Of a DNA stretch of 64,000 nucleotides, positions 17,374-23,347 are shown piece by piece. The notes under the pieces are model-generated. The model saw only the letters and a program-made list of their open reading frames with translations. It was not told the origin of the DNA and searched no databases. The number at the start of each line of letters is the position of its first letter. The stretch's first letter is position 1. A program made the position numbers and the translations under genes. This DNA is from Herbiconiux sp. L3-i23 (GTDB lineage: Bacteria > Actinomycetota > Actinomycetes > Actinomycetales > Microbacteriaceae), in assembly GCF_023734115.1 (NCBI RefSeq), contig NZ_AP025737.1:2666001-2730000 (forward strand), in the 5' to 3' direction.

Positions 17374-17475
17374 GCAAGACAGGAGGGAGCCCCGGTCGAC
17401 TAGCTCCCGGGGATCCCGTACCTCCTGATCGCCCGTCGAGGAGCCCCCAATGCAGGGGGCTCCTGTCGGTTAACG
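17374..17475 (+). ncRNA. candidate structured small RNA
   Basis: Between the hydrolase terminator and the convergent galM lies a compact set of helices: CAGGAGG (17380-17386) pairs with CCTCCTG (17421-17427), enclosing CCCCGG / CCGGGG (17390-17395 with 17407-17412), and a perfect 10-bp terminator stem AGGAGCCCCC-AATGCA-GGGGGCTCCT follows at 17439-17464. TAAGTT at 17362-17367 could be the -10. No ORF fits. The final hairpin could equally be the terminator of galM on the other strand, so an independent RNA is only a hypothesis. Confidence 0.3.
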
Positions 17476-17510
17476 ACGAGGCGGCGAGAAGGCGCGTCAG
17501 GGGACGCCGA

Positions 17511-18431
17511 TCAGTTCAGCCGGCGGATTCCCCAGGTCGCGAGCCACTCCTCGCCGGGCTCGAGGAAGCGCAGGCCCTCCCCCGTGTTGAGCGCGTTCGC
17601 GGGCGCCGTCATCGGCTCGATCGCGACAGCGAGTTCCTCGCCGTCGGGGCCCGGGAAACCGGGGCGGGTGAACACCTGGGTGTACGCGAAGTCCTCCTCC
17701 GCCCACAGCTCGGTGGTCACACCGTCGGGCGCTGCGAGGCGGTGCCGGTAGCGGCCGTCGATGAGCGCGAGGTCGGTGAGGCAGACGTCGATCGCGAGGT
17801 CGCCGGCGCGCGCTCCCGACCGGAGGTCCACGTCGGTTCCGTCGACGGGGCGGGTGACGGTGGGGATGTGGCGCTCGTCCATCTCGAAGCGGGTGTCGGC
17901 CGCGACGACGATCTGCAGGTCGTCGACCGACGAGGCACCGGCCCGCAGGTAGGGGTGCGCGCCGATCGCGACCGGCGCCCGCCCGTCGCCGGCGTTGACG
18001 ATGCCGTGCGTGACGGTGAGCCCCTCGTCGTCGAGCTCGTACCGCACCGACGTCTGCAGGAGGAACGGGTAGCCGTGCTGCGGGAACACCGTCGCCGACA
18101 GGGTGATCGCATGCTCTTCACGGTCGGTCACCGAGTATCCGGTGTTGCGGAGCAGACCGTGCGAGGCGTTGCCGGTCGCCGGCTCCGTCACGTCGAGGCG
18201 CTGGGTCGCGCCGTCGAGGGTCCAGGTCGCGTCGGCCACGCGATTGGGCCAGGGCACCAGCACGATCCCGGCGGCGTACGGCGCGATCCGGTCGTCGGGG
18301 TAGCGCTGCACGAGGTCGGGCCCGCCGACGCTCAATGACCGCAACCCGGCGGCCAGTTCGGCGACGACCGCCTTCACCTCGCCGAGGGCGCCGTCACGAC
18401 GGAGGAGGTGCTGTTCACCGGTGGGAAGCAT
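17511..18431 (-). CDS. galM: aldose 1-epimerase family protein
   Basis: Interconverts alpha and beta anomers of free hexoses (mutarotase). The 306-residue product has the family landmarks: GIVLVPWPNRVADATW (substrate Arg), HGLLRNTGY with the catalytic His, ATVFPQHGYPF, GAHPYLRAG with the second His and, near the end, AVAIEPMTAPANAL containing the catalytic Glu. It is 3 kb from galTK on the opposite strand; together these give galactose use by the Leloir route. TAGGCT lies six bases before the ATG on the minus strand (leaderless type). Confidence 0.9.
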   Translation of the reverse strand: MLPTGEQHLLRRDGALGEVKAVVAELAAGLRSLSVGGPDLVQRYPDDRIAPYAAGIVLVPWPNRVADATWTLDGATQRLDVTEPATGNASHGLLRNTGYSVTDREEHAITLSATVFPQHGYPFLLQTSVRYELDDEGLTVTHGIVNAGDGRAPVAIGAHPYLRAGASSVDDLQIVVAADTRFEMDERHIPTVTRPVDGTDVDLRSGARAGDLAIDVCLTDLALIDGRYRHRLAAPDGVTTELWAEEDFAYTQVFTRPGFPGPDGEELAVAIEPMTAPANALNTGEGLRFLEPGEEWLATWGIRRLN

Positions 18432-18567
18432 GCCGCCAGCCTATGACTCGACCGGTTTCGTCGGCCTCGCCCGCCCGTCGAGGCGGCAGGACGAACCGGA
18501 TCGTCGTACCCCGCGCGACCCGCCGACGCAGCGGATGAAGTCCCCATTTCTTCGGACCGGATGTCGT

Positions 18568-18647
18568 TTTCGGGGGACATCGCGCTTGGAGAATCCTGGC
18601 TTTGTCCCCCGAAAGGGTTGACTCCGTGAAAAAAGCGGGCGTAGCGT
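18568..18647 (+). promoter_or_regulatory. inverted-repeat operator and promoter of the surface-protein locus
   Basis: A perfect 12-bp inverted repeat, TTTCGGGGGACA (18568-18579) and TGTCCCCCGAAA (18603-18614), separated by 23 bp, ends three bases before TTGACT (18618-18623). TAGCGT (18642-18647) follows with an 18-bp spacer. This is a sigma-70-type promoter with a large dyad immediately upstream, the right place for an activator or a repressor. The region also lies between divergent transcription units, but galM has its own -10 next to its start. Confidence 0.6.
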
Positions 18648-18699
18648 GCTCTGCACCAACGCGCGGGGGCGCGGTGATCACCGGGGAGGGGTGAGCACG

Positions 18700-19566
18700 A
18701 TGGACGAATCCGTCAAGACGTCGATCCCATCGTGGTTGCGCGCCGCTCTCGCGGGCACCGGTCTCGCCATCGCCGCCGTCGGTCTCGGAGTCCTGGTCGG
18801 CGGCTCTCCCGCCCAAGCGGACGACGCCTCGCTGTCCGGCGTCGTCGGCGGACTCGCCGACACCGTACAGGGCACGACCGGCGCGGTCGACGGACTCCTG
18901 GGCCAGGAGATCGTCGCTCAGACGCTCACCCCGGTCTCGAGCACGGTAGACCAGCTCGTCGGCTCGACCGTCGCGGCCGTCCCCGTACTCGGCGACGACC
19001 TTTCCGCTGCTACCGACGGGCTCGTCGGCGACATCCTGGTCCCTGTGTCGGAGTCCGCCGACTCGCTGCTCGGTGCCAGTGGCGATGTGGTCTCGTCATC
19101 CGGCGGAGTGGTCGGCGGCCTGCTCGACAGGACCGGCGGCGCGATCGACGGGGTCCTCGACTCGGTCGACCCGGCTCACGCCCTGCCGACGACTCCCGCG
19201 ATCCCGGTTCCGGGTCCGGCGACGCCGCAGGCAGCCGCGGCGGCGAGCGCCTCGACCTCTCCCACCGCGCCTGCCACCGAGACGCTCTCCGACGGGATCT
19301 CGACGACCGCGCCATCGAGCGTCCTCTTCGCATCTCGCCCGGACTTGGTCATCGACGTCCCGGGGCGACCGGACGGGCGCAGCGGGCCAAGCCAGGACGG
19401 CCTCGGAACGGTGGCGCCGGCCGCCTCCGCCGCGTCAGCCCCGGCCGGCAGCGATGTGGCCGCGTACTCCGCGCTGCCCTTCCTCGACCGCGCGCTGCGC
19501 GGGCCGGGCGGGAGCTCCGTGCTGCCCGGCTCCGTCACCCACGACACCGACGCCTCGCCCGACTGA
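18700..19566 (+). CDS. secreted low-complexity surface protein
   Basis: A 288-residue exported protein of unknown function. Signal peptide: polar/basic start, hydrophobic core (ALAGTGLAIAAVGLGVLVGG) and likely cleavage after Ala40 (AQA|DD). Residues 45-150 are a run of imperfect V-x-G-L-x units (GGLADTVQGTTGAVDGLLG, STVDQLVGSTVAAVPVLG, GGVVGGLLDRTGGAIDGVLD), predicted amphipathic helices; the rest is Pro/Ala/Ser-rich. No anchor is seen. ATG at 18700 follows GGGGAGGGG. It shares GAVDGLLG (61-68) with the anti-sigma factor tail at 9.0 kb and is followed by the chaplin-like gene, suggesting a cell-surface role. Confidence 0.7.
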   Translation: MDESVKTSIPSWLRAALAGTGLAIAAVGLGVLVGGSPAQADDASLSGVVGGLADTVQGTTGAVDGLLGQEIVAQTLTPVSSTVDQLVGSTVAAVPVLGDDLSAATDGLVGDILVPVSESADSLLGASGDVVSSSGGVVGGLLDRTGGAIDGVLDSVDPAHALPTTPAIPVPGPATPQAAAAASASTSPTAPATETLSDGISTTAPSSVLFASRPDLVIDVPGRPDGRSGPSQDGLGTVAPAASAASAPAGSDVAAYSALPFLDRALRGPGGSSVLPGSVTHDTDASPD

Positions 19567-19667
19567 GTGGATCGCGGCCGTCCTTTCGAGGCGGCCATCT
19601 GCATCCTGCGCCATCGGCGCACCTTTTCCACTCACGTAATCAAGCGAATCAAGGAGATGTGTTCGTC

Positions 19668-20966
19668 ATGTCACGAATCACCACGCGAGTGCTCTACGGA
19701 GTGCTCTTCGCCGGCGGCATCACGCTGCTCGGCGCGACGGCCGCCAATGCGGCCGAGACCAGCGGCGAGGACTCGATCCTCGGCGGCACGCAGGCGGTGC
19801 CCGTCATCACCGCACCCATTCAGGTCGACGGGCTCTCGCTGAGCCTGTTCGGCGACAGCGCGACCTCGGGTTCGGGGGCTACGGCCCCGGTCGAGGCGCC
19901 GGTATCGGCACCGGTGACCGGCGGAGCCGACGGCATCGCCTCCGGCAGCCAGGTCGCTCCCGTCGTCACCGTACCGGTCGACATCAGCGATGTCGCCGTC
20001 TCGGTGTTCGGCGACAGCAGCGCCTCGTCGACCGGAGCGTCGAGTACTTCCGGTGAGGCCGCATCGTCGGCCCCCACCACGGAAGGCACCGATTCGGTCG
20101 CCGGGGGCACGCAGGTCGCGCCCGTGGTGACCGCTCCGATCGACGTCAGCGGCGTGGCCGTGTCGCTTCTCGGCGACAGCAGCACCACGTCGGTCGGGAA
20201 CGCCGGAGCGGTGAACGCTCCGGTCGGGGGCGCCGCGACCGCACCGTCCACCACCGGGAACGACTCGGTGGCGGGCGGATCGCAGATCGGCGGTGCCGTC
20301 ACCGCCCCGATCTCGGTCGGCGGCGTCGCGCTGGCTCCGTTCGGCGACGCGACGACCACCGGCTCGACCGGCTCGGGCGCCGCGCTTCCGAGCGGCGGCT
20401 CTGCGGGTGGGGCGACCACCGAGGGTGAGGACTCTCTCGGAGGCGGCACGCAGGTCGTCCCCGTCATCACCGCACCGATCGATCTCGGCGGCATCGCCGT
20501 CTCCCTCACCGGCGACAGCGAGGTGACCGGCGGCGGCTCCGATGGCGCCACGGTTCCCGTCACCGGCGGGTCCGAGGCCACGACTTCCGGGAATGACGGC
20601 ATCCTCGGCGGCACCCAGATCGCACCCATCGTGACTCTGCCGATCTCGATCGGCGACATCGCGATCAGCGTGACCGGAGACAGTGAAACCGGCACCCCGG
20701 GAGGCGGCAGCACCGACCCGGGCACCGATCCGGGTACCGAGGGTCCTGGAACGGGCGAGCAGCCCGACGACACCGTCGCTCCGGGCGCGACCGCGGTCGC
20801 CTCGGGGATCAGCCTCGCGGTCCTCGACACCCGTCCCGTCGCCGGCTCGCAGCTGGCCTGGACGGGAGCCGACGTCTCCGGCCTCCTGGCGGCAGCGGGA
20901 ATGGTGCTGCTGCTCGGAGCGGCGCTGCTCGTCTCGAGGCGGCTCGCGCGGAACTCGCGAGGCTGA
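19668..20966 (+). CDS. chaplin-like six-repeat surface protein with LAXTG sortase signal
   Basis: A 432-residue wall protein. Signal peptide ends near ANA|AET (residue 28-29). Six 31-residue repeats lie at 34-64, 87-117, 141-171, 198-228, 254-284 and 309-339; a typical one reads GGTQVAPVVTAPIDVSGVAV followed by S-L-L-G-D-S. They resemble the chaplin pattern (G-x-x-V-Q-V-P-V...N-V-x-G-x-x-V-x-V-x-G) but have no cysteines. Linkers are Gly/Ser/Thr/Ala-rich. The C-terminus has LAWTG (396-400), a hydrophobic helix and SRRLARNSRG: a class-E (LAXTG) sortase signal. AAGGAG lies 11 bases before the ATG. Probably an anchored hydrophobic coat or adhesion protein; that function is inferred. Confidence 0.8.
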   Translation: MSRITTRVLYGVLFAGGITLLGATAANAAETSGEDSILGGTQAVPVITAPIQVDGLSLSLFGDSATSGSGATAPVEAPVSAPVTGGADGIASGSQVAPVVTVPVDISDVAVSVFGDSSASSTGASSTSGEAASSAPTTEGTDSVAGGTQVAPVVTAPIDVSGVAVSLLGDSSTTSVGNAGAVNAPVGGAATAPSTTGNDSVAGGSQIGGAVTAPISVGGVALAPFGDATTTGSTGSGAALPSGGSAGGATTEGEDSLGGGTQVVPVITAPIDLGGIAVSLTGDSEVTGGGSDGATVPVTGGSEATTSGNDGILGGTQIAPIVTLPISIGDIAISVTGDSETGTPGGGSTDPGTDPGTEGPGTGEQPDDTVAPGATAVASGISLAVLDTRPVAGSQLAWTGADVSGLLAAAGMVLLLGAALLVSRRLARNSRG

Positions 20967-20987
20967 CCTTCGAGCTGACCGAGTAGG

Positions 20988-21031
20988 GACGCCGTCCCTC
21001 TGCCCGTCGCACCGGGTGGAGGGACGGCGTC
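20988..21031 (+). terminator. terminator after the chaplin-like gene
   Basis: Perfect 13-bp stem GACGCCGTCCCTC (20988-21000) / GAGGGACGGCGTC (21019-21031) with an 18-base loop. No long T-tract, but position and strength suit the end of the surface locus. Confidence 0.7.
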
Positions 21032-21077
21032 ATGCCCGCGATGAGCGGACTCCTCCACTCACTAGGCTTGGGGCGCG

Positions 21078-22190
21078 ATGGAACTGACATCAGGCATCAC
21101 GGCGCACCGAAGCACCATGGCGGACGGGCGCGAGCTGATCTACTACGACGACGCCGACACGACCCTCGGCAGCGAGCGCGCCGCCGACGCCCGCGATCTG
21201 CCGCCCCGACCGCCGACCGCCTCGATGCGCCAGGACGTGCTCACCGGCGAGTGGATCTCGGTTGCCGCCGCCCGGCAGAATCGCGCGTTCCTGCCGCCCG
21301 CCGAACTCGACCCGCTGTCGCCGCAGACGCCGACGAACCCGTCCGAGGTCCCGAGCCTCTATGACGTCGTCGTCTTCGAGAACCGTTCGCCGTCATTCGG
21401 CCCGCTGCTCGAAGACGAGAACGCCCCGCGCGGCCTCGCCGACCTTGCCGAGATCGGGTTCGGCCGCACCCGGACCTCGGTGGGTCGCTGCGAGGTGGTC
21501 TGCTTCTCCCCCGAACACGAGGGTTCGTTCAGCGGCCTCAGCCGCGCGCGGGCGCGCACGGTCATCGAGGCGTGGGCGCATCGCACCGCCGAACTGTCGG
21601 CGCTTCCCGGCGTCGAGCAGGTCTTCCCGTTCGAGAACCGCGGCCAGGACATCGGCGTCACCCTGCATCACCCGCACGGGCAGATCTACTCCTATCCCTA
21701 CGTCACCCCGCGCACCGGCCGCCTGATCCAGTCGATCGAGACCTACGGCCCCGGCCTCTTCGAGGGCATCCTCGAGACCGAGCTCGCCTCCGATCGGGTA
21801 CTGCTGCGCGGCGAGCACTGGAGCGCGTTCGTGCCGTTCGCGGCGCGCTGGCCGATCGAGGTGCACATGCTCCCCCACCGTCACGTGCCCGACTTCGCCG
21901 AGACCACGGTCGAGGAGCGCGACGAGCTCTCGCACCTCTACCTGCGGCTCCTCAAGGGCATCGACGCGCTCTACCCCACCCCCACGCCGTACATCGCGGC
22001 ATGGCACCAGGCGCCCGTGCACACGCATCGCGACGAGATCCGGCTCATGCTGCAGCTGACCTCACCGCGGCGCGCGGAGTCGAAACTCAAATACCTCGCC
22101 GGATCGGAGGCTGCCATGGGCGCCTGGATCGGCGACGTCCCGCCCGAGACTTCCGCGGCGATGATCAGAGAGGCGCTCGAGCGCGTATGA
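21078..22190 (+). CDS. galT: galactose-1-phosphate uridylyltransferase
   Basis: Second step of the Leloir pathway: galactose-1-phosphate + UDP-glucose to UDP-galactose + glucose-1-phosphate. The 370-residue product has the catalytic HPHGQIYSYPYVTPR with the nucleophilic His, FENRGQDIGVTLHHPHG and LMLQLTSPRRAESKLKYLAG. Length and motifs are normal. There is no ribosome-binding site; TAGGCT (21063-21068) lies nine bases before the ATG, so the transcript is leaderless or nearly so. The stop overlaps the galK start. Confidence 0.95.
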   Translation: MELTSGITAHRSTMADGRELIYYDDADTTLGSERAADARDLPPRPPTASMRQDVLTGEWISVAAARQNRAFLPPAELDPLSPQTPTNPSEVPSLYDVVVFENRSPSFGPLLEDENAPRGLADLAEIGFGRTRTSVGRCEVVCFSPEHEGSFSGLSRARARTVIEAWAHRTAELSALPGVEQVFPFENRGQDIGVTLHHPHGQIYSYPYVTPRTGRLIQSIETYGPGLFEGILETELASDRVLLRGEHWSAFVPFAARWPIEVHMLPHRHVPDFAETTVEERDELSHLYLRLLKGIDALYPTPTPYIAAWHQAPVHTHRDEIRLMLQLTSPRRAESKLKYLAGSEAAMGAWIGDVPPETSAAMIREALERV

Positions 22191-23347
22191 CCGACGTCCG
22201 TTCCGACACGCTGTCCGGCTTCGCCGAGCGGTACGGCCACACCGCCCTGTCGCTCTGGTCGGGGCCCGGTCGGGTCAACCTGATCGGCGAGCACACCGAC
22301 TACAACGAGGGCTTCGTCTTACCCTTCGCGATCGACCGTCGCACCTTCGTGGCGATGCGTCCGCGCCAGGACTCCCTCGCCCGCGTCGGCTCGTCCTTCG
22401 CCCCCGAGACCGTTGAGATCGACCTCGCCGACCTCCGCGCCGAGAACGTGGACGGCTGGTCCGCCTACCCGCTGGGCGTCGCCTGGGCCATCGGTCAGTT
22501 CACCGGCGGCAGTGTTCCGACGCGCGGCTTCGACCTGTACGTACACTCCGACGTCCCGGTCGGGGCCGGTCTCTCGTCATCCGCGGCGATCGAGAGCGCG
22601 ACGGCCCTCGCGCTGAACGACCTGTGGGAGACCGATCTCGACCGCCGGACGCTCGCTCGCGTGGGACAGCTCGCCGAGAACAAGGCCGTCGGGGCCCCCA
22701 CCGGGATCATGGACCAGTCGGCGTCGCTGCTCGGCGAGACCGACGCGGGAGTCTTCCTCGACTGCCGCTCGCTCGACGCCGAGGTCATCGGCCTCGGCTT
22801 CGAGCCGGCCGGCCTCGCCGTCGTGGTCATCGACACCCGCGTCTCGCACGCGCACGCCACCGGCGGATACGCCTCGCGTCGCGCGTCCTGCGAGGCCGGA
22901 GCCCGCACCCTCGGAGTGGAAGCCCTGCGCGATGTCGGCATCGCGAGGCTCGACGAGGCGCGCGAAATGCTCGACGACGAGACCTTCCGTCGCGTCCGCC
23001 ACGTCGTCACCGAAGACCAGCGCGTGCTCGACACGGTGCGGACCCTGCGCGAGAAGGGGGCCGACGCCATCGGCGAGCTGCTCGTCGCCTCGCATGTGTC
23101 GATGCGCGACGACTTCGAGATCTCGGTGCCCGAGCTCGACCTCGCCGTGGAGTCGGCGCTGGGTGCCGGCGCGATGGGCGCCCGCATGACCGGCGGCGGC
23201 TTCGGCGGCGCCGCGATCGCGCTGACCCCGATCGACCGGGTCGAAGCGGTGCGCGCGGCCGCGACGCGCGCGTTCGCCGACGCCTCGTTCCGCGAGCCGA
23301 TCAGCTTCACCGTCGTCCCCTCGGCCGGCGCCCGTCGCGAGGACTGA
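22187..23347 (+). CDS. galK: galactokinase
   Basis: First Leloir step: ATP-dependent phosphorylation of galactose (GHMP kinase family). The 386-residue product has the substrate motif GPGRVNLIGEHTDYNEGFVL, the ATP-binding GAGLSSSAAIE and the third motif RMTGGGFGGAAI. GIMDQSASLLGE carries the catalytic Asp. The ATG overlaps the galT stop (ATGA), which fixes the start and couples translation. GalE is not in the window. Confidence 0.95.
   Translation: MTDVRSDTLSGFAERYGHTALSLWSGPGRVNLIGEHTDYNEGFVLPFAIDRRTFVAMRPRQDSLARVGSSFAPETVEIDLADLRAENVDGWSAYPLGVAWAIGQFTGGSVPTRGFDLYVHSDVPVGAGLSSSAAIESATALALNDLWETDLDRRTLARVGQLAENKAVGAPTGIMDQSASLLGETDAGVFLDCRSLDAEVIGLGFEPAGLAVVVIDTRVSHAHATGGYASRRASCEAGARTLGVEALRDVGIARLDEAREMLDDETFRRVRHVVTEDQRVLDTVRTLREKGADAIGELLVASHVSMRDDFEISVPELDLAVESALGAGAMGARMTGGGFGGAAIALTPIDRVEAVRAAATRAFADASFREPISFTVVPSAGARRED

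Follow-up and report, generated by a model that had tools for sequence, protein, structure and literature searches.

The window analysed here, a stretch of 64,000 nucleotides from the 3.18-Mb genome of Herbiconiux sp. L3-i23 (Microbacteriaceae), carries on its forward strand a gene (19668-20966) for a predicted wall-anchored protein with Cys-free, chaplin-like repeats. The reading frame opens with an ATG at 19668, closes with a stop at 20966 and encodes 432 aa without any cysteine, as the first-pass annotation had claimed for the repeats. The N-terminus, MSRITTRVLYGVLFAGGITLLGATAANA, contains a signal peptide (residues 1-28, positions 19668-19751) that is recognisable in the sequence and kept in relatives. 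It is followed by six repeats, all in register, at 19764-19860, 19923-20019, 20085-20181, 20256-20352, 20424-20520 and 20589-20685. Each copy spans 97 nt (about 33 aa), the start-to-start distances are 159, 162, 171, 168 and 165 nt (53-57 aa), and repeats 2-6 share 61-73% DNA identity with repeat 1. The annotated number of copies and their spacing of about 55 residues therefore hold, but the annotated repeat length of 31 residues does not. A Gly/Thr/Pro linker leads from the repeats to an LAWTG sorting motif (20853-20867), which is followed by a membrane helix and, after this hydrophobic stretch, by the basic tail RRLARNSRG (the whole anchor region covering 20853-20963), and the LAXTG-type anchor proposed earlier is thus present. 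The NCBIfam model Microco_LAVTG scores 18.8 bits on residues 396-425, under its cut-off of 27. The hydrophobic periodicity of the repeat core is beta-like (160-180 degrees), at up to 1.61 times the shuffled level.

When nine repeat proteins of the family were scored with an HMM built from the six window repeats alone, they reached 51.7-270.1 bits; 30 column-permuted versions of this HMM gave at most 5.0 bits on the same nine proteins. In its own genome, the repeat profile matches only the six repeats of this gene, which is also the sole match there to an LAXTG-type DNA pattern that is ill-suited to the purpose. A sequence search of the PDB with the repeat protein returned one meaningless match (E 0.13), and relatives sought through window-specific peptides amounted to 237 stretches, with 0 confirmed.

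Directly upstream, on the same strand, lies a companion gene (18700-19566) that the first-pass annotation did not mention. It encodes a predicted secreted protein of 288 aa with a signal peptide at approximately residues 1-40 and, again, 0 Cys. The window companion has no match in Pfam or NCBIfam; among 17 companions, the best Pfam match stands at 0.08 and one protein matches an NCBIfam phasin model at 0.0019. AlphaFold2 places helices at residues 6-26, 29-53, 61-86 and 97-115, followed by a stretch without regular structure. The model has a mean pLDDT of 63.3 and a pTM of 0.35, with confidence rising slightly in the last 18 residues, and is therefore read as a hint of secondary structure and not as a fold. 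In the first 170 mature residues of 48 companions, the hydrophobic period is 95-100 degrees, as in alpha helices, at 1.97 times the shuffled level. Together, model and periodicity delimit a predicted amphipathic helical region at mature residues 6-115 (18835-19164).

The body of the companion is of low complexity, and relatives are only 20-32% identical to the window protein. A long Pro/Ser/Ala linker precedes a conserved C-terminal tail of the pattern ...LPxSPxFxTDxSPD-COOH, which in the window reads GSSVLPGSVTHDTDASPD (19510-19563) and in which neither an LPXTG-type signal nor a membrane anchor is seen. The tail table of 76 loci yields the consensus xDDxLPxSPVxDTDxSPD, and the tail profile has a single match in the genome of the window (E 5.4e-4). 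The final residue is D in all 76 script-found loci; the pattern used for upstream ORFs, P[DE], fixed the penultimate P and left the last residue free as D or E.

The two genes are separated by a spacer of 101 nt (19567-19667). In Microbacteriaceae and one Janibacter, this spacer measures 78-134 nt with a median of 96 (69 cases). In the window and 67 named loci (n=68), the folding energy of the spacer against dinucleotide shuffles has a mean z of -2.64, with 60% of the values below -2, compared with a mean z of -0.51 and 12% below -2 in the coding DNA of the companions taken as control (n=68). A bulged hairpin, whose arms pair despite differing sequences, occurs in 25/68 spacers against a mean of 5.2 in shuffles, although the motif is also raised in the coding control (13/68). 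The strong folding is a property of the relatives; the window spacer itself is weak (z -1.13) and the hairpin motif is absent from it. A search for known RNA families in 17400-21200 gave one chance match under its gathering score, RNAalifold on a MAFFT alignment of the spacers retained 3 pairs only in the consensus, and with a crude hairpin finder, real and shuffled spacers were almost alike (8.9 vs 8.0 pairs).

The order of companion and repeat gene was followed in named loci; of 157 confirmed ones, the best 80 were used, which had been chosen for carrying the repeat. In 76 of them, an ORF with the terminal residues P[DE], in each case PD, was located upstream by script. The companions of three more (L086, L118 and L159) were found on inspection, and the last locus, L089, is cut at the contig start, so that the companion precedes the repeat gene in 79/79 testable named loci. 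An ORF with the same tail also lies upstream in the window and in all 20 loci fetched from the genus and the family, four of which (G281, G127, G060 and G146) are counted among the 80 as well; companion homologues occupy the same place in the genomes G002 and G008. Two other families of the order, f4 and f2, have an ORF at this place in 11/11 loci, recognised there from its tail and position. These companions end in DPGSSPD, DPGSRPD or similar, with PD in 10 and PG in one; f4 contains Janibacter, and the Janibacter contig is one of the 80 named loci. Among 447 ORFs of at least 100 aa in 26 Streptomyces-type chaplin loci, regions of only about 3 kb each, a single one ends in [STA]PD.

Across 299 genomes of the family, the tail is found in 62 (once in each), the repeat in 93 and both in 57 (Fisher p = 2e-30, a value that ignores relatedness), leaving 36 repeat genomes without a tail match. 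The short tail profile misses G002, G004 and G005, although their companions are plain by eye, and 57/93 is therefore a lower bound. Five genomes have the tail only. In the four inspected (L163, L164, L165 and L166, from G061, G130, G220 and G230), the downstream protein has a similar signal peptide and Asp-rich repeats of the type GDGxLVEGGxVGD, with LAxTG visible in three and the fourth cut. As the companion is kept in these genomes next to other repeats, the pair seems to persist when the repeat type changes.

The pair in the window also has galactose genes as neighbours (17511-23347). The same order, galM - companion - repeat - galT - galK, is found in G002, and galM - companion - repeat, near a contig end, in G008. 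These were the only 2 of 20 loci searched in which gal genes adjoin the pair, the other 18 being without them, and the gal operon was therefore rejected as part of the module.

Of the 299 genomes of the family, 93 match the repeat profile, which was built from 71 units, and so do 30 of 85 genera. In the order, this profile matches 41/297 genomes, of which 28 belong to other families; some of the matches reach only about E = 1e-3. Cysteine is absent from 65 of the 71 named relatives with an excisable mature part, which makes Cys-free repeats the rule here, and these 71 proteins have 2-10 repeats each (median 7). The motif LAx[TS]G was located by script at the C-terminus of 73/80 named relatives, three of the seven misses being cut by contig ends. 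A typical repeat gene of this kind also occurs in a metagenome bin labelled Fulvimarina (L089), perhaps through a binning error.

Class E sortases recognise LAXTG and attach the long chaplins of Streptomyces, according to the accessible part of the literature (PMC5148588). The genome of the window encodes three sortases, one of which is a clear class E enzyme (234.7 bits, cut-off 160), in line with what the first-pass annotation had expected. The presence of this enzyme is nevertheless unspecific and weak evidence, as class E sortases exceed the cut-off in 89/100 genomes of the family; it permits anchoring of the repeat protein but provides no argument for chaplins. The other two sortases, at C1:1980698-1981111 (L002) and 2078597-2079013 (L003), are closest to class F, under the cut-off of that class. 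In G005, from the genus of the window, repeats are present and the class E model has no match; the repeat locus is partly masked in this genome, and masking elsewhere in it may lie behind the missing match.

Compared directly with the chaplin domain (PF03777), the window repeats do not stand out from chance. The window repeat protein matches 0 Pfam families up to E = 1, and its six repeats reach 5.3% in hhalign against Streptomyces-type chaplins, the same value as the best of 60 column-permuted controls, the number used in each comparison with chaplins. The reference consisted of 26 canonical two-Cys domains from eight genomes of a single genus, each of which matches PF03777 6-15 times, and the label "Streptomyces-type" is inferred from this. 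On these grounds, the direct match was rejected as stand-alone evidence. The first-pass annotation had likened the repeats to the chaplin core and had named the lack of a significant profile match as a reason to give up the likeness; the direct comparison is by itself such a result, and only intermediates rescue the claim.

These intermediates are the repeats of relatives. Against the same chaplins, 99 repeats from loci picked by PF03777 reached 96.4% (best permuted control 22.1%). Because this set had been selected for chaplin likeness, a second test was made with sets not picked by PF03777. In it, a set of 34 repeats, drawn from four genomes of the family that PF03777 does not match, scored 93.6% (best permuted control 5.3%). 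Another set comprised nine repeats from G004 and G005, which belong to the genus of the window and had been found with the window protein and not by PF03777; it scored 82.0% (best permuted control 28.8%). Window and genus repeats combined gave 42.3% (best permuted 4.7%). The window repeats, in turn, match the four-genome set at 99.2%, the G004/G005 set at 98.4% and the PF03777-picked set at 99.1%, although the repeats of every set were excised with HMMs built on this repeat and this first leg of the bridge, from window to relatives, is therefore not blind. The six-repeat HMM also matches 19 of the 20 loci fetched from genus and family, with E from 4.9e-83 to 9e-15, 16 of these 20 loci having been picked by PF03777. 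In the alignment, the core runs in register and without gaps (GVLSGN.V..PV.VPVNVCGNTVNVIG against SILGGTQ.VPVITAPIQVDGLSLSLFG). Thus, the proposed relationship stands by way of relatives, at 98.4-99.2% and then 82.0-96.4%, each over the permuted controls, and fails as a direct match. On these alignments, the repeat core is judged homologous to the chaplin domain, solely via intermediates.

PF03777 itself is above its cut-off in 65/299 family genomes and 25/85 genera, and matches 14 of the 17 members of the relatives' set A2, 14 of which had been picked by PF03777 in the first place. The genome of the window has no PF03777 match anywhere, and hence no short secreted chaplin beside the repeat protein. 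The GN motif of chaplins is kept in 4/5 repeats of G004, in 2/4 of the partly masked G005, in 29/34 repeats of the four family genomes without a PF03777 match and in 91/99 repeats of 15 other family loci. It is found in none of the six repeats of the window, of G002 or of G008 (0/18 together), which is most simply explained as a loss within that subclade. Judged from these comparisons, the subclade of the window has lost the GN motif as well as the cysteines, and its repeat is related to the chaplin domain by common descent but lacks the marks that define chaplins. In another family (genome G628), the locus L187 encodes a protein with numerous chaplin-like GN repeats, one or more of which contain Cys (VNVGCNDITLIGNSASDC); this protein is a possible intermediate toward classical chaplins.

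The reading preferred here, which we hold with slightly better than even confidence, is a two-gene surface module formed by a chaplin-related repeat protein and a secreted partner, and acting as a putative coat. By their sequences, both products are predicted to be secreted, the downstream one with six chaplin-like beta repeats and a sorting signal of the class E type. The order of the two genes is conserved across Microbacteriaceae and, judged by the tail of the companion, in two other families, and the repeat protein shares its ancestry with the chaplin domain while lacking the Cys pair, the end of the domain and, in this subclade, GN. In the proposed mechanism, both proteins would be exported by Sec, and the class E sortase would cut the repeat protein at LAWT/G and fix it to the peptidoglycan, where its beta-patterned repeats could form or seed a hydrophobic or adhesive layer. 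The companion would remain unlinked, adsorb via its amphipathic helices and dock by its C-terminal tail on the repeat protein or the wall, and may thus be a soluble partner, surfactant or helper of the coat. The missing cysteines need not prevent assembly: fibrils are formed in vitro by ChpE and by short chaplins in the reduced state, according to the part of the report available (PMC3079736). The lack of a PF03777 match in the genome, and therefore of a short chaplin, the known coat subunit, argues against a coat.

Alternatively, the companion could be a dedicated chaperone or escort that shields the aggregation-prone beta repeats during and after export, its free C-terminal tail marking or releasing the complex at the wall or the sortase. 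The constant pairing with the companion first, its C-terminus free of LPXTG-type signal and membrane anchor, the predicted helices and the possible change of partner repeats while the companion stays would all suit an escort, but the protein matches no chaperone family and the long Pro/Ser/Ala linker ahead of the tail seems, in our judgement, unusual for a chaperone. We consider this role unlikely, though it ranks next after the coat module. Slightly less probable still is a simple adhesin or stalk role for the repeat protein, which would bind sugar or wall, its repeats folding singly and neither assembling nor building a hydrophobic coat. Beta repeats and Pro/Thr stalks are common to many LPXTG-type adhesins and, in the genus of the window, a position flanked by galM and galT-galK might indicate surface polymers that contain galactose; this arrangement recurs in G002 and in part in G008. 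However, the rarity of gal genes beside the pair (2/20 loci) and the kinship of the repeats with a self-assembling domain speak against a mere adhesin.

The chaplin likeness might also be convergence, reflecting the short Val/Gly/Ala/Pro beta patterns of any such surface repeat. The chance-level result of the window repeats alone, the missing Pfam match and the selection of the 99-repeat set for likeness would be expected from convergence, but the sets not chosen by PF03777 score well over their controls (93.6% vs 5.3% and 82.0% vs 28.8%) in the same ungapped register, and 65/299 family genomes exceed the cut-off of PF03777 itself. By these sequence comparisons, convergence is largely refuted at the family level, and we regard it as improbable overall. 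The coat module, the escort, the adhesin and convergence are ranked in this order; the readings overlap, and their probabilities do not sum to one. A bolder form of the preferred coat module, to which we give somewhat less than an even chance, extends it to a two-component coat system of the order Micrococcales. Here, a protein with interchangeable beta repeats, mostly Cys-free and chaplin-related, would be anchored by the class E sortase and would need a dedicated partner, secreted and with amphipathic helices, whose free SPD peptide would be a new recognition signal.

Chaplins make up the amyloid coat by which Streptomyces grows into the air, and the Microbacteriaceae are mostly plain rods. 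A Cys-free chaplin relative in this family allows the role of a chaplin domain in the absence of aerial growth to be tested directly, in bacteria that are easy to grow. The recurrence of the gene pair in many Microbacteriaceae, as well as in some of their relatives, is a hint that a surface coat of two parts exists beyond Streptomyces. The conserved C-terminus of the partner offers a concrete handle: it would be a new peptide for docking or else a new signal for export or assembly. If the two-component system is real, chaplins would represent a single branch of a more ancient system of surface proteins whose origin did not lie in aerial hyphae. Where a chaplin-like gene of Arthrobacter chlorophenolicus is mentioned in the literature, it is suggested that surface attachment might predate aerial growth (PMC4255298).

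No description of chaplin-type proteins from Microbacteriaceae or of the companion was found in the literature searched, which covers subscription journals thinly and leaves such an absence unproven. As far as these searches go, the new elements are the repeat architecture as a Cys-free branch related to chaplins and the SPD-tailed partner at every testable sampled locus. Cys-free chaplin domains as such are already known from ChpE; cysteine is also absent from one ChpB domain, according to the portions available of the two reports concerned (PMC3079736, PMC13251363). Like the window protein, ChpE has no Cys, and it forms fibrils in vitro according to the available text (PMC3079736), but it is short, single-domain and unanchored. 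Outside Streptomyces, CwpA and CwpB of Actinoplanes missouriensis are SrtE-anchored hydrophobic surface proteins, which in the available part of that account are described by their authors as lacking a chaplin domain (PMC13251363), a description that sets them apart from the window protein. A chaplin-like gene has also been reported in the non-sporulating rod-coccus Arthrobacter chlorophenolicus, in a single sentence of the accessible text that does not describe repeats, anchor or companion (PMC4255298).

Also among the nearest known counterparts are the long chaplins ChpA-C of Streptomyces. These have two chaplin domains, compared with six repeats in the window protein and a median of seven in the 71 named relatives. 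In contrast to these long chaplins, the window protein has no Cys and a shorter repeat without the third strand and the third GN; its subclade lacks GN altogether and its genome any PF03777 match. The companion, in turn, was not seen upstream in the 26 Streptomyces-type chaplin loci, within about 3 kb each. Common to both systems are the signal peptide, a chaplin-type beta domain, an LAXTG-type signal and a class E sortase, and the core of the relatives' repeats aligns without gaps to that of the long chaplins.
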